Of a DNA stretch of 45,113 nt, positions 1,144-35,864 are shown in pieces. The notes under the pieces were generated by a model that saw only the letters and a program-made list of their open reading frames with translations, was not told the origin of the DNA and searched no databases. How positions within the stretch are numbered: the first letter of the stretch is position 1; the number at the start of each line of letters is the position of its first letter. Made by a program: the position numbers and the translations under genes. Source of the stretch: Paenibacillaceae bacterium (lineage in GTDB: Bacteria > Bacillota > Clostridia > Lachnospirales > Lachnospiraceae); NCBI GenBank assembly GCA_015057715.1, contig SVDS01000010.1:1-45113 (forward strand). Reading direction: 5' to 3'.

Positions 1144-1722
1144 TTACTTAAAAGTAGTACTACCTTTTCCATCCAAATAAGTATCACTATTGGGCAGTTC
1201 AGTTTCATTTCTTACTTGTATAGCTAAATTCGTACCTGTTGGTACATTTGTAAATTTGACACCTCCTTTTATATTATCTGCTTTACCCTTATAAGAAAAT
1301 AAAGGAGTTTTATAATCTTGCATTATAGATACAACGTAGTAATGATCACTAGATGTATATGTAGCTTTTGTTTTTTTATTTAATAATTTCGCTTGTGTAG
1401 CTACACTCCACGTAGATGAAGAATTATATTCATAATTTGTGTTAACTTTATCATTTATTGTAAAACTAAATGAGCCAATTGATCTTAACATTGATTTCTG
1501 CGACTCTGGAGCAGTATAAACTATTTTTCCATTTACCAGTTCACCATTAGTATAATCTAAATCATATAATGGATCATTGATATCAACTACTTGTACGTTA
1601 CCAATAGTTTCAACTTTAACAGTTTCACCATTGATCTCGATTTCGTGCGTAGAAGCAGAAACGCTGATTGAAAACATTAAAACCATTGTAATACTTGTTA
1701 CTAATAAATGTAGCTTCTTCAT
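1144..1722 (-). CDS. Secreted protein of unknown function
   Basis: A 192-residue protein starting with a clear Sec signal peptide (MKKLHLLVTSITMVLMFSIS, cleavage likely after SVSA near residue 23). The mature part is rich in Thr, Ser, Asn and Tyr and looks like a small beta-rich extracellular domain; I recognise no family. The ATG is preceded by AAGGGGG at good spacing. It is AT-rich like its downstream neighbour and ends in a strong hairpin terminator. The pair may be accessory secreted factors that arrived with the neighbouring mobile element; that is inference from composition and position only. Confidence 0.7.
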   Translation of the reverse strand: MKKLHLLVTSITMVLMFSISVSASTHEIEINGETVKVETIGNVQVVDINDPLYDLDYTNGELVNGKIVYTAPESQKSMLRSIGSFSFTINDKVNTNYEYNSSSTWSVATQAKLLNKKTKATYTSSDHYYVVSIMQDYKTPLFSYKGKADNIKGGVKFTNVPTGTNLAIQVRNETELPNSDTYLDGKGSTTFK

Positions 1723-32760: not shown

Positions 32761-32844
32761 TCTGTCAATCTCCTATCCTCTGCTTCTTTTTATTTTAACA
32801 CTTTACCATAAAAAACTTTTTCCCGCAACAGGTAGTATTCCAAA

Positions 32845-32862
32845 TTTTACTGACCAGTAAAA
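32845..32862. repeat. 18-bp palindrome straddling the hflC stop, upstream of metF
   Basis: ttttactgaccagtaaaa, 8-bp arms around two central bases. It lies upstream of a possible metF promoter (minus-strand TTGCGG at 32823-32828 and TAAAGT 17 bases on), a position typical of activator sites. No T run follows, so it does not look like a terminator. Confidence 0.4.
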
Positions 32863-33716
32863 ATCCTGGCAAGGGGAGAGCCTCCCGGAAGGATTAGGGT
32901 ATTCCCATTTCCTGCAAGTGACTTTTTGGCTGCTTCCAGCGACCGCACAAAGGAATAGAAATCTGATCTTTGAGGATCATGATAAGCTTCCGCCATAATT
33001 CTCATATATTCTCCTTCTCCTTCTGATGTGATTGATGCCGCCTTTGCCTGAGCATCAGAAATACTGATTGCTATTTCACGGTCTGTTGTATTTTGTATCT
33101 TTTTCGCCTCTGCCTGGCCTTCTGCTGTAAATGTGGCAGCTATTTTGGCACGCTCTGAAATCATTCTTTCATACACGGCTGTTTTATTATCTGCCGGAAG
33201 ATCCAGGCGCTTTGTTTCCACTGCCAGCAGACGGATTCCATACTGGCCCATGTTTTCTCCTACATTATCCATAATCGCCTGAGAAAGTTCCCCATCACGA
33301 CTGCTTATAACTTCATTCTGGGCCATACTGCTGATCACATTCTTTACTGAGTTATAAACCACCGTATCAATTCTGCTCTCTGCACCAGTAAGAGATGAAT
33401 TCAGTGACTGGGCAAATTTCAGAGGATCTTCAATCCGCCAGAGCACGTAGCTGTCACTGAGCATGGTTTTTTTATCCATGGTAATCACATCGGAAGCCGC
33501 AAGATCGTAAATTAAAATCTGTTTTGGCAGAGTATCTGCTGTCTGGATCAATGGTATCTTGAAAGAGACGCCTGGGGAATCAATGACTCTTTCCACTCTT
33601 CCAAACTGTCTGATCAGCTTAAATTCATTTTCCTTTGTTACTACTAACCCTCCGGAAAGCACCGTTACGGTAACTGCAGCAATCACAATTCCTATGGCTG
33701 TTTTTATCTTTTTCAT
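32847..33716 (-). CDS. hflC: SPFH/band 7 protein HflC
   Basis: A 289-residue protein with one N-terminal membrane segment (about 7-25), a band-7/SPFH domain (to about 190) with the opening VVTKENEFKLIRQFGRVERV, and a coiled-coil Ala/Glu-rich region (ISERAKIAATFTAEGQAEAKK). HflC forms with HflK a large membrane cage that modulates the FtsH protease and membrane protein quality control. It overlaps hflK by four bases (ATGA), so the two are translationally coupled. It shares the promoter and riboswitch upstream of hflK. Confidence 0.92.
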   Translation of the reverse strand: MKKIKTAIGIVIAAVTVTVLSGGLVVTKENEFKLIRQFGRVERVIDSPGVSFKIPLIQTADTLPKQILIYDLAASDVITMDKKTMLSDSYVLWRIEDPLKFAQSLNSSLTGAESRIDTVVYNSVKNVISSMAQNEVISSRDGELSQAIMDNVGENMGQYGIRLLAVETKRLDLPADNKTAVYERMISERAKIAATFTAEGQAEAKKIQNTTDREIAISISDAQAKAASITSEGEGEYMRIMAEAYHDPQRSDFYSFVRSLEAAKKSLAGNGNTLILPGGSPLARIFTGQ

Positions 33717-34690
33717 TCCTGATTCTCCTTCTTTTCACTGGCCGCTCCTCCTGTAAAGCTGTCAAGAGGGAGGATGGTACTGGTCTTGTCTGTACCGTCA
33801 ATAATCACTTTCATGTTTGGAAGCACATCTTCCATTGTTTCATAAAACATTCTTTTTTTGGTCACTTCCGGGTTTTTCACATATTCCTCGTACATGGCAT
33901 TGAATTTTGCTACCTCTGCACTGGCCGCATTAATCCTCTTTGCCTTGGCAGACTCCGCTTCCTGAAGAATCTGATCTGTCTGGGCAGTTGCCTCCGGAAG
34001 CTTTTCATTGCGGTACTTATTTGCATTGTTGATCGCTGTCTCTTTTCCCTGTTTGGCTGTTTCCACTGCCTTAAAGGCTTCCATTACCTCCTTTGTGGGC
34101 GGTTCTGAATCCTGTATGGTGACATTGATCACCGTAAGCCCTACATTGTGTTCTGCCAGTTTTGATGTGATCATTTCCTTAACTTTTGACTGAATCTCAT
34201 TTTTTCCATTGGTCAGCACAGAATCCACATCGTAACTGCCAATGACTGTTCGGATGCTGCTTCTTGATACATTCTGTAAAATGATCAGGGGATCGCTGGA
34301 AGCATAGATTGCCTTTACCGGATCTGTAACTTTATACTCCACAAAAAAATCCACGTTTACAAAATTATAATCCTTCGTAATCATCAGGGAATCTTCTTCC
34401 TTGCTCTCATTGTCACTGGGATCGTAGCCGACAGCAAATCCCTGTATGGTGGTATTCACCTTATGCACATTCTGTACAAAGGGGATCTTAAAATGCAGTC
34501 CCGGCTCTGCAACCGTTCTTGGAATCCCTAACGTGGTCACTACCGCCTGTTCCTGCTCCTGCACATTATAGACAGAGCCAAATGCAATCACAGGAACCGC
34601 AACAGCGAGTAAAACCGCTATCCCGGATTTCTTTATCACTTTCCGGATTTTTCTTAATTGCTCCGTTCCTTTTGGGTTAACTGTTTCCAT
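33713..34690 (-). CDS. hflK: SPFH/band 7 protein HflK
   Basis: A 325-residue partner of HflC: N-terminal basic tail, membrane segment (about 23-43), SPFH domain beginning YNVQEQEQAVVTTLG, and a coiled-coil region (TAKQGKETAINNANKYRNEKL, ATAQTDQILQEAESAKAKR). GAGAGG lies upstream of the ATG. It is the first gene after a 180-base leader that carries a metal-type riboswitch and a terminator, so its synthesis appears to be controlled at transcription elongation. HflK from enteric bacteria has a Gly/Pro-rich N-terminal tail that is absent here. Confidence 0.92.
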   Translation of the reverse strand: METVNPKGTEQLRKIRKVIKKSGIAVLLAVAVPVIAFGSVYNVQEQEQAVVTTLGIPRTVAEPGLHFKIPFVQNVHKVNTTIQGFAVGYDPSDNESKEEDSLMITKDYNFVNVDFFVEYKVTDPVKAIYASSDPLIILQNVSRSSIRTVIGSYDVDSVLTNGKNEIQSKVKEMITSKLAEHNVGLTVINVTIQDSEPPTKEVMEAFKAVETAKQGKETAINNANKYRNEKLPEATAQTDQILQEAESAKAKRINAASAEVAKFNAMYEEYVKNPEVTKKRMFYETMEDVLPNMKVIIDGTDKTSTILPLDSFTGGAASEKKENQE

Positions 34691-34738
34691 TCTTTATTTC
34701 CTCTCTTTCTTTTTAGGGGGTCTCTCGCAAAAAAGGAT

Positions 34739-34785
34739 ATAAAAAAAGACCTTTGCCGGTACCTGATGGTATCAGTAAAAGTCTT
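34739..34785 (-). terminator. Riboswitch-controlled intrinsic terminator in the hflK leader
   Basis: 18-bp stem with two mismatches (AAGACTTTTACTGATACC / GGTACCGGCAAAGGTCTT, loop ATCA) followed by seven T residues, about 49 bases before hflK. Its 5' arm contains the 3' strand of riboswitch helix P1 (34777-34781), so the two structures exclude each other. Confidence 0.9.
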
Positions 34786-34868
34786 GACATTTCATAAGAA
34801 TGCGGATAAATCTCTTTATCGTTCTGACGCACGCTTATCCAGCCTTTCGGTGGAAGCTACTCCCTTTT
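34777..34868 (-). ncRNA. yybP-ykoY (manganese) riboswitch aptamer in the hflK leader
   Basis: Read on the minus strand, helix P1 is AAAAG / CTTTT, followed on the 5' side by the conserved GGAGTAGC and on the 3' side by TCAAGA. Between them are a hairpin with GAAA loop (GCTT...AAGC outer stem) and a second arm with the asymmetric loop GTCAGAAC, stem GATAAA / TTTATC closed by a GAGA tetraloop, and CGCAT. This matches the two-legged yybP-ykoY layout. The class binds Mn2+ (with Mg2+) and usually turns genes on. Here P1 formation would break the following terminator, giving an ON switch. Assignment is from memory of the consensus, not a covariance search. Confidence 0.85.
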
Positions 34869-34880
34869 GCGATTGGGATT

Positions 34881-34909
34881 ATTATATCAGAATGATTATT
34901 GTCTGTCAA
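34881..34909 (-). promoter_or_regulatory. Consensus sigma-A promoter of the hflK-hflC operon
   Basis: TTGACA (34904-34909), 17-bp spacer, TATAAT (34881-34886): both hexamers perfect. The predicted start, near 34874, falls a few bases before the riboswitch aptamer, so strong initiation is gated by the leader. Confidence 0.92.
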
Positions 34910-34925
34910 TAGCAGGTTTTAACGG

Positions 34926-35864
34926 CTAAGTTTCCTGATTTATTACAGCCTCAGGATTGTTATAGGATACATAAACCTGTATCCGGTCTTCATAGATATA
35001 GATGTTTACATCAAAGATACCTTCCAGGATATAGGCTCCTTCCCGCTGGTTAATCCTTGCCTGTGCCTGTTCTATAATCGAGTCAGCACTGCTCTGGTCT
35101 GCCTCAACCCTACACCCTGCTTCTGTATCCAGTAAAAACTGTTTCAGATATGCCAGAGTCGCTTCCTGATCCTCCAGATAGGAAACATACCGGTGGAGTT
35201 CCCCTGTAACCGTATCATAGTTAATATCCACATACTCATACGATTCCACATCAGAACCAGTTTCTTCCGCTGCTTTAGGAGTCAGATAAACGCTTTCCAC
35301 AGTCTCATAAAAAGTCAGCGGATTGCCATCCTGCTTAAACTCATAATTATCCCCATAAGTCTCCTGGGAAATTATGGTGTAGCCATACTCCTCTTTTTCC
35401 ATAAACTGGACCACAGACCTGGAAATCCCTTTTCCGTCCGTATCAAAGTGATCGAATCCGCTGCAATGCTCTCCTGCGGCTATTATCTCCGCTTCATTTA
35501 AATCCCGATATCCATAGTCATCATATCCCACTGCTGTATCATACTTGCTTTCCAAAGAGGTGGCATTTACCGCACAGCTGATAATCACACTGGCCAGAGT
35601 CGTGATCACAATAAACAGAATCACAGCAAACAGCAGTACATTGGATCGGCCCTTTCCAGGCAATGGAGTATGGACAGTCGGTTGAATTGACGACGCCTTG
35701 GCGACAGACGGCTGACTTACCGGAATTACTGTGTCGCTTCTCTTCTCATTTAATAAATAGTCTGTATTCCAGTAAACAGGCTTTTTAACAACACGCCTGC
35801 ATCTGGGACAGTAATTGATCTCATTCACCGGCAGATCACAAACCGGACAAATCTTTCTCATCAT
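34926..35864 (-). CDS. Zinc-ribbon membrane protein of unknown function
   Basis: A 312-residue protein. The N-terminus has a four-Cys zinc-ribbon (CPVCDLPVNEINYCPRCRRV, residues 6-25), then a basic Pro/Ser-rich stretch, one membrane segment (about 75-97) and a larger acidic extracytoplasmic domain rich in Tyr, Asp and Glu, without a recognised family. This cytoplasmic zinc ribbon plus single membrane helix pattern is common in uncharacterised Firmicute envelope proteins. AGGGGG lies upstream of tandem ATGs. It follows the small 108-residue gene by 18 bases and precedes the strong hflK promoter. Confidence 0.8.
   Translation of the reverse strand: MMRKICPVCDLPVNEINYCPRCRRVVKKPVYWNTDYLLNEKRSDTVIPVSQPSVAKASSIQPTVHTPLPGKGRSNVLLFAVILFIVITTLASVIISCAVNATSLESKYDTAVGYDDYGYRDLNEAEIIAAGEHCSGFDHFDTDGKGISRSVVQFMEKEEYGYTIISQETYGDNYEFKQDGNPLTFYETVESVYLTPKAAEETGSDVESYEYVDINYDTVTGELHRYVSYLEDQEATLAYLKQFLLDTEAGCRVEADQSSADSIIEQAQARINQREGAYILEGIFDVNIYIYEDRIQVYVSYNNPEAVINQET

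Follow-up and report, generated by a model that had tools for sequence, protein, structure and literature searches.

A yybP-ykoY-like leader with an alx-type L3 upstream of hflKC, a candidate metal-responsive riboswitch

We propose that hflK and hflC in a Lachnospiraceae genome are controlled by a metal-responsive leader RNA. In the window (the whole stretch of DNA that we analysed, 45,113 nucleotides), the minus strand holds, in order, a promoter, an aptamer, and a terminator (leader 34909-34741), and then hflK-hflC. The aptamer has the architecture of the yybP-ykoY (Mn2+) riboswitches, with an L3 of the sub-type seen in the alx leader of Escherichia coli. We think it probable that this leader is a transcriptional ON riboswitch that works by antitermination, and by analogy with characterised relatives, Mn2+ is its most likely ligand. 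Leaders of this sub-type, which we call R1 after the covariance model described below, are often followed by genes for membrane scaffolds and not by the manganese exporter that is usual for the class. If our proposal is correct, then metal stress is tied directly to membrane-protein quality control by a metal riboswitch that precedes SPFH scaffold genes (hflKC and flotillin).

The preliminary description of this DNA treated such an association as one that is not known to have been described, and our searches of the open-licence literature agree. We found no report there of yybP-ykoY with hflK; part of the association may stand in the original gene lists of the class. Searching the same literature for a riboswitch with SPFH, flotillin, YccF, band 7, or manganese gave none among the matches listed, and when HflK, riboswitch, Lachnospiraceae, and manganese were combined, hflK was absent among the matches listed. 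Nothing was found there that joins yybP-ykoY to a P-type ATPase, an exchanger, and TerC together, and yybP-ykoY with oxaloacetate decarboxylase brought up only a paper on the Na+ riboswitch.

Anatomy of the leader and the genes around it

The features are listed in Table 1. A perfect TTGACA-17-TATAAT promoter had been reported, and all 12 consensus positions do match. The reported hallmarks of the aptamer are also present, at 34868-34777: the AAAAG-GGAGTAGC opening, the GTCAGAAC loop, and the CAAGA-CTTTT closing. The terminator had been described as 18 bp long. Folding gives a hairpin followed by a T run, but the stem (34785-34746) has 16 base pairs and two A.C mismatches over its 18 positions. 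Because a simple terminator scan that allows no mismatch does not list this hairpin (0 terminator-like sites in 34500-35100), our terminator call rests on the fold. The 5' arm of the terminator, AAGACUUUU (34785-34777), holds the 3' strand of P1, as the preliminary description had it, so the aptamer and the expression platform have this strand in common.

Table 1. Features of the hflKC leader and its target genes (positions in the window)
Feature	Position	Strand	Basis
Sigma-70 promoter: TTGACA (34909-34904), 17-nt spacer, TATAAT (34886-34881)	34881..34909	-	12/12 consensus matches
P1 (switch helix), 5' strand AAAAG	34864..34868	-	Pairs with 34781-34777
L1, 5' strand GGAGUAG (yybP-ykoY hallmark)	34857..34863	-	Invariant in 13 R1 seed rows
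P2 hairpin CCACC-GAAA-GGCUGG, one bulged C	34839..34853	-	5/5 pairs vary on both sides; 91.6% of cells paired
P3 arm: P3.1 lower stem, UGCG/CGCA, L3 bulge, P3.2 hairpin	34794..34838	-	Covariation and fold
L3 bulge UCAGAAC, 7 nt	34821..34827	-	Third base is the equivalent of the Mn2+-sensing A41 (L. lactis) or A48 (X. oryzae)
Linker GAAAUGU in the place of P4	34787..34793	-	Sequence and seed alignment
L1 3' strand CAAGA (34786-34782) and P1 3' strand CUUUU (34781-34777)	34777..34786	-	Seed alignment, fold
Intrinsic terminator, loop AUCA, U tract	34741..34785	-	Fold
hflK (FtsH protease activity modulator)	33713..34690	-	TIGR01933, 232 bits (cut-off 159.4), equivalog-level; Band_7
hflC	32847..33716	-	TIGR01932, 163.6 bits (cut-off 134.4), equivalog-level; Band_7; overlaps the end of hflK

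The leader, terminator included, folds at z = -3.63. Left unconstrained, it folds at minimum energy into the terminated form (-34.3 kcal/mol); enforcing the aptamer, with no energy credited to a ligand, gives -16.9. The internal loop L1 above P1 reads GGAGUAG/CAAGA (34863-34857 and 34786-34782); it corresponds to the GGAGUAG / RAGAC loop of the class and is conserved in the R1 alignments, and L3 is 7 nt long and includes the invariant adenosine that senses Mn2+ in known members. The crystal structures have a P4 and a four-way junction. Here a 7-nt linker takes the place of P4, so we predict a three-way junction; five leaders of the family with the other L3 type (ACAUACU), which we used as seeds for a second model, likewise have only a short linker there. 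A second hairpin, over the ribosome binding site, is possible in the fold, and we dropped it as it has no counterpart by eye in more distant relatives.

The downstream genes are hflK and hflC, as first described, by equivalog matches. Beyond hflC, and 86 nt from it (32761-32846), the same strand carries metF, then a gene for a MetH activation domain, and then metH. The simple scan, which also missed the mismatched hflK terminator, found no terminator-like site between the genes from hflC to metH, and co-transcription of hflKC with metF and metH is only possible. The upstream neighbour (34926-35864, minus strand) encodes a 312-amino-acid protein whose N-terminal CPVCD...CPRC looks like a zinc ribbon by eye; it has no Pfam match at E ≤ 0.001.

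Conservation, covariation, and linkage to hflK

By DNA comparison, the leader is found in 17 genomes of the genus (including the window's own), and these are exactly the genomes whose HflK is 77-100% identical to the window's. HflK has a match at E ≤ 1e-50 in 20 of the 25 genus genomes, and the three divergent hflK genes (50-51% identical proteins) have no R1 match at E ≤ 1. The R1 model was built from 13 leaders, 11 of them linked to hflK and 2 linked to a gene for a protein of about 150 amino acids, and it has 28 base pairs; this seed make-up means that its best-scoring matches favour those two contexts. The HflK proteins that best match the window's in our genome collection, at 98% identity, are from Lacrimispora xylanisolvens and a Hungatella sp. 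metagenome assembly. The HflK search retained 80 hflK loci, 76 of them with at least 500 nt upstream. R1 has a match (E ≤ 0.01) at 34 of the 80, always upstream and on the same strand, and no match at that threshold at the other 46. These 34 leaders come from Lacrimispora, Hungatella, Clostridium sp., Blautia, Konateibacter, Murimonas, Fusibacillus, Marvinbryantia, and other Lachnospiraceae, Eubacteriales, and Clostridia. The comparison of hflK leaders that had been suggested for related genomes bears out the linkage, in all 17 close orthologues of the genus and in a large minority of the 80 hflK loci.

The second model, R2, was made from the five ACAUACU-type leaders. It matches 10 of the 80 hflK loci, and every one of these matches coincides with an R1 match that scores higher. 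Across 397 family genomes, R1 has matches in 143 (E ≤ 0.01) and R2 in 201, and either count may contain weak cross-matches to the other type. In a phylum-wide draw, R1 matched 35 of 348 genomes, including the window's own.

The preliminary description had also proposed looking for covariation in the arms among homologous leaders. Among 96 distinct aligned R1 relatives (the first 100 of the 130 R1 loci that we sampled), 23 of the 28 pairs show changes on both sides. Cells with changes on both sides number 512, against a shuffled mean of 171.5. Also, 92.0% of cells can pair, as compared to 35-48% when the partners are slid, although these percentages lean towards the model because the alignment was fitted to R1. 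P1, P2, and P3 all contribute pairs that vary on both sides, and the signal is carried by P2, the lower stem of P3.1, and P3.2. P1 pairs in 97.4% of cells, yet only 2 of its 6 pairs vary on both sides, because it is too conserved to vary much. Within the P3 arm, 5/5, 3/4, and 6/6 pairs of helices 4, 5, and 6 vary on both sides. Helix 5, the short stem by L3, is firm only in its CG/CG part because its two outer pairs are often open (unpaired in 57 and 42 of the 96 rows). The structure of the hflK leader is more than chance.

The elements on either side of the aptamer are conserved as well. Of the 128 relatives for which the sequence extends 100 nt or more upstream, 113 have a promoter site that matches at least 10 of 12 positions, versus 0 of 128 single shuffles, and among the 119 sites that score at least 9, 109 lie no more than 12 nt from the aptamer. 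In 121 of the 130 R1 relatives, the 3' strand of P1 forms part of the terminator stem (six lack the search motif and three did not fit). The same test succeeds at 47 of 70 R2 loci.

These data bear on whether the leader might be a leader-peptide attenuator or belong to some other known leader class, which we consider very improbable. There is a short ATG frame, ATGAAATGTCAAGACTTTTACTGA, across the 3' strand of P1, but the frame is lost in relatives, which carry an extra G; locus L025 reads ATGAAATAG. The helices covary, which also argues against attenuation, and we rejected leader-peptide attenuation given that the frame is not conserved. As for other classes, a lax Rfam scan of the leader found only miRNA, snoRNA, archaeal sRNA, and Phe leader families, all with E above 1.

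Class assignment and the targets of two L3 types

The preliminary description called this element a manganese-type riboswitch, and it named a non-significant score for RF00080 (Rfam's yybP-ykoY model) as a result that would count against the idea. The score is indeed non-significant: in the window, RF00080 has no match at its gathering cut-off (45), nor any match at E ≤ 10 in 34640-34960, and its two weak matches elsewhere in this genome are not at hflK. This failure says little, because in E. coli K-12 the model gives mntP just 41.6 bits (below the cut-off) and does not list alx at E ≤ 0.01, and it exceeds the cut-off in 0 of 150 family genomes. In this family, leaders with the classical motif stand before mntP despite the silence of RF00080 (for example, at locus L033). 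Our R1 model matches all 8 of the ACAUACU-type switches of the family that we tried, at 28-41 bits, and outside the family, RF00080 gives matches below its threshold at 10 of the 20 R1 loci that we scanned (best 40.9 bits). Some of these extra-family loci precede apparent P-type ATPase and TerC genes, by eye. These results suggest that RF00080 misses a common sub-class, including E. coli alx. We place the hflK leader in yybP-ykoY by its architecture, as supported by comparative evidence, and as an alx-like variant; by Rfam's own rule it is not a member of RF00080.

The metal site of this class is built from L1 and L3, and L3 is UCA41AU43UC in Lactococcus lactis and ACA48U49ACU52 in Xanthomonas oryzae, where A41 and A48 are the Mn2+-sensing base (PMC6754395 and PMC9190785, each in part). 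The L3 of the hflK leader, UCAGAAC, resembles those of L. lactis and E. coli alx and not those of X. oryzae and E. coli mntP (ACAUACU). The two E. coli leaders fall on opposite sides of the same split that we see in the family. The alx leader (L378 4371-4463; L3 UCAUUAC) is matched by R1 (19.3 bits, E = 0.003) and not by R2 (E ≤ 1), and the mntP leader (L377 4464-4550; L3 ACAUACU) is matched by R2 (24 bits, E = 1e-4) and not by R1 (E ≤ 1). This two-type split, in our family samples and between E. coli mntP and alx, is a testable handle on which yybP variants sense other divalent ions (a subject of PMC7266159, in part).

The L1 motif GGAGUAG is also present in the ACAUACU-type switches of the family, and no fewer than 19 of 100 aligned R1 rows have GGAGUAA instead. 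In those 100 rows, the sensing adenosine is kept in 97. The exceptions (L080, L081, and L089) have the L3 UCUUCUU, with U for the sensing adenosine, and all three precede the 150-amino-acid protein. By contrast with these, all 34 hflK-linked rows have the sensing adenosine and an L3 that ends in AC, and the window's hflK leader, judged by its sequence, keeps what Mn2+ sensing is known to need. A 6-nt L3 (such as UCAACC, UCAGCC, or UCACCC) occurs at no fewer than 21 of the 29 loci with the 150-amino-acid protein, at all five loci with YccF first, and, as UCAGCC, at 2 of the 13 HflK-like loci of the target sample; divergence may have gone further in the yccF group. In a few R1 members, L3 starts with A or is 8 nt long.

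We compared the targets of the two types at 130 R1 loci and 70 R2 loci. The R1 loci are 30 that we retrieved plus 100 from a score-ordered list, so they represent the best-scoring places (the sample excludes four places with scores in this range, of which three lie near a contig start); the R2 loci are 30 retrieved plus 40 chosen mainly from genomes with R1 matches. Each locus was labelled by the first recognised BLAST cluster among its first three open reading frames. To name the clusters, we scanned one or two representatives of each cluster other than ABC (Pfam, NCBIfam) and, among the single genes, that of L079. The R1 targets are P-type ATPase (45), the 150-amino-acid protein (29), HflK-like proteins including divergent SPFH proteins (13), calcium/sodium exchanger (10), OadB (7), flotillin (5), YccF (5), CNNM (4), and ABC (1), with none recognised at 11. 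The R2 targets are MntP (51), P-type ATPase (11), exchanger (6), and ABC (1), with none recognised at 1. Thus, MntP follows 0 of 130 R1 switches versus 51 of 70 R2 switches (Fisher p 5e-32), and HflK-like proteins, flotillin, the 150-amino-acid protein, YccF, and OadB together follow 59 of 130 versus 0 of 70 (Fisher p 2e-14); both p values overstate the case, as related genomes are not independent and sampling was by score and partly by genome. The window's own genome has three R2 matches, one of which (L252) precedes a P-type ATPase.

Some individual loci are also of interest. The 150-amino-acid protein stands behind R1-type switches at L052, L056, L058, L163, and others, with YccF next in several loci; the one representative that we scanned (L163) has no Pfam or NCBIfam match. 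R1-type switches precede oadB at L072, L075, L097, L185, and L195 (L097 was named by scan and the others by eye or cluster). OadB is a subunit of a Na+ pump that is known from Na+ riboswitch regulons. Other R1-type switches precede LemA-like genes (L179 and L191, by eye) or a KUP potassium transporter (L079). Locus L196 has two R1 matches on opposite strands and about 140 nt apart, at 1270-1363 (-) and 1501-1602 (+).

Since MntP is missing from the sampled R1 targets, the ligand of R1 could differ from that of R2, and the alx-like L3 sub-class of the hflK leader, which has a target set of its own, makes the ligand of this leader less certain. Perhaps R1 has the same architecture but its specificity has shifted to another divalent ion, with Ca2+ the most plausible, in which case it would control Ca2+ pumps and Na+/Ca2+ exchangers as well as membrane scaffolds. 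We consider this unlikely. The segregation of targets fits it, including in the 44 genomes in which both types were sampled, but those p values assume independence among genomes that are related, and score and genome guided the choice of both samples. An R1 ATPase finds its best match in lmo0841, a Ca2+ pump of Listeria (707 bits over 704 residues), and in a FastTree tree with a midpoint root, 9 of the 11 R2 ATPases are in a deep separate clade. This evidence from the pumps is soft, as the other 2 R2 ATPases group on the R1 side and the two R2 representatives that we tried also match lmo0841 best, if more weakly (392 bits over 482 residues for L230; 79 bits for a 200-residue piece of the R2 ATPase from the window's own genome). 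The R1 exchanger representative is a calcium/sodium antiporter (TIGR00367, above the cut-off), but exchangers were compared for R1 only. The three natural members with U for the sensing adenosine would fit a change of ion, whereas the hflK leaders keep this adenosine, whose N7 favours Mn2+, in 34 of 34 cases. Similarly, a review expects yybP variants for other divalent ions (PMC7266159, in part) and a pneumococcal relative has been called Mn/Ca2+-sensing (PMC11434433, in part), but the solved L. lactis switch, with the same type of L3, is Mn2+-specific (PMC6754395 and PMC9190785, in part), alx responds to Mn2+ (PMC9603457, in part), and outside the family the same kind of L3 stands before apparent TerC genes, by eye. 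Phrases for a calcium riboswitch found nothing in the open-licence literature.

A broader idea, which we offer tentatively as possible but doubtful, is that the R1 leaders of Lachnospiraceae-type bacteria (alx-like, UCANNNC) are a separate sub-class with an ion or signal of their own, either Ca2+ or Mn2+ gated by alkaline pH. Their regulon would join Ca2+-type P-type ATPases and Na+/Ca2+ exchangers to HflKC, flotillin, and YccF, and the branch with a 6-nt L3 (yccF and its partner), which is near the members that lost the sensing adenosine, would have changed its specificity again.

Proposed mechanism and comparison with known systems

For the hflKC leader itself we prefer an Mn2+-responsive ON switch, and we infer its ligand, direction, and physiological role as follows. 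If no ligand is present, the 3' strand of P1 would be taken into the strong terminator hairpin and transcription would stop before hflK. Rising cytoplasmic Mn2+ would dock L1 on L3, and alkaline pH would probably assist, as it does for alx in E. coli; the docking would stabilise P1, the terminator could not form, and hflK-hflC would be transcribed. During metal stress, the resulting HflKC might modulate FtsH or the membrane. We favour the ON direction because, in L. lactis, Mn2+ stabilises P1.1 and thereby prevents an overlapping terminator (PMC11087558, in part). In Bacillus subtilis, FtsH acts with YqgP to degrade MgtE, and cleavage is raised by high Mn2+ or Zn2+ (PMC7231995, in part); because this link between metal excess and FtsH is on record, hflKC is a sensible target. 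Points that speak against an Mn2+ switch are that RF00080 is silent in the window, that P4 is lacking, that the sampled R1 targets differ so clearly from those of R2 switches in shared genomes, that L3 has A at position 6 and not U as in L. lactis, that R1 finds nothing at 46 of the 80 hflK loci or at the three divergent hflK genes of the genus, that the alx match is weak, and that 2 of the 13 HflK-like loci have a 6-nt L3.

The reporters of alx are raised by Mn2+ and by alkaline pH, and most by both (PMC9603457, in part). This raises another explanation, that the hflKC leader is structured but has no metal ligand and instead reports pH or the speed of transcription, like the pH-response element of alx, or binds a protein. 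It would fit with the response of alx to alkaline pH alone (PMC9603457, in part) and with the fact that, when alx and mntP of E. coli were tried, R1 found only the alx leader. However, the loops of the metal site, L1 and L3, are along with P1 the most conserved parts, and many R1 targets are cation transporters, so we think this explanation is improbable.

Among known systems, E. coli alx shares with the hflK leader the L1 motif, an L3 of the form UCANNAC, a match to R1 (at a low similarity, as given above), and a failure to be listed by RF00080. The target of alx is annotated as an Mn2+ exporter, presumably of the TerC family, and the hflK leader differs in that it would act on hflKC, via a terminator that overlaps P1. 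The yoaB switch of L. lactis, whose target we take to be a P-type ATPase, has U at position 6 of L3 where the hflK leader has A. Going by published descriptions (PMC6754395, PMC9190785, and PMC11087558, each in part), it resembles the hflK leader in L1 (which includes A10 in L. lactis), in having a 7-nt L3 that begins with UCA (UCAAUUC), and in that the 3' strand of P1.1 is common to the terminator; it differs in having P4 and a four-way junction. The mgtA riboswitch of Streptococcus pneumoniae (called Mn/Ca2+-sensing), which we liken by description, is of the yybP-ykoY family and precedes a metal efflux ATPase, unlike the window's leader, which precedes hflKC (PMC11434433, in part). Finally, the ACAUACU-type switches (L033, L252, and others of the family; E. 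coli mntP; X. oryzae) have the same layout of P1, L1, P2, and P3 as the hflK leader, but their L3 is ACAUACU or near it, their P1 is like CAUAAG/CUUAUG, and their targets are mainly MntP (51 of the 70 sampled).
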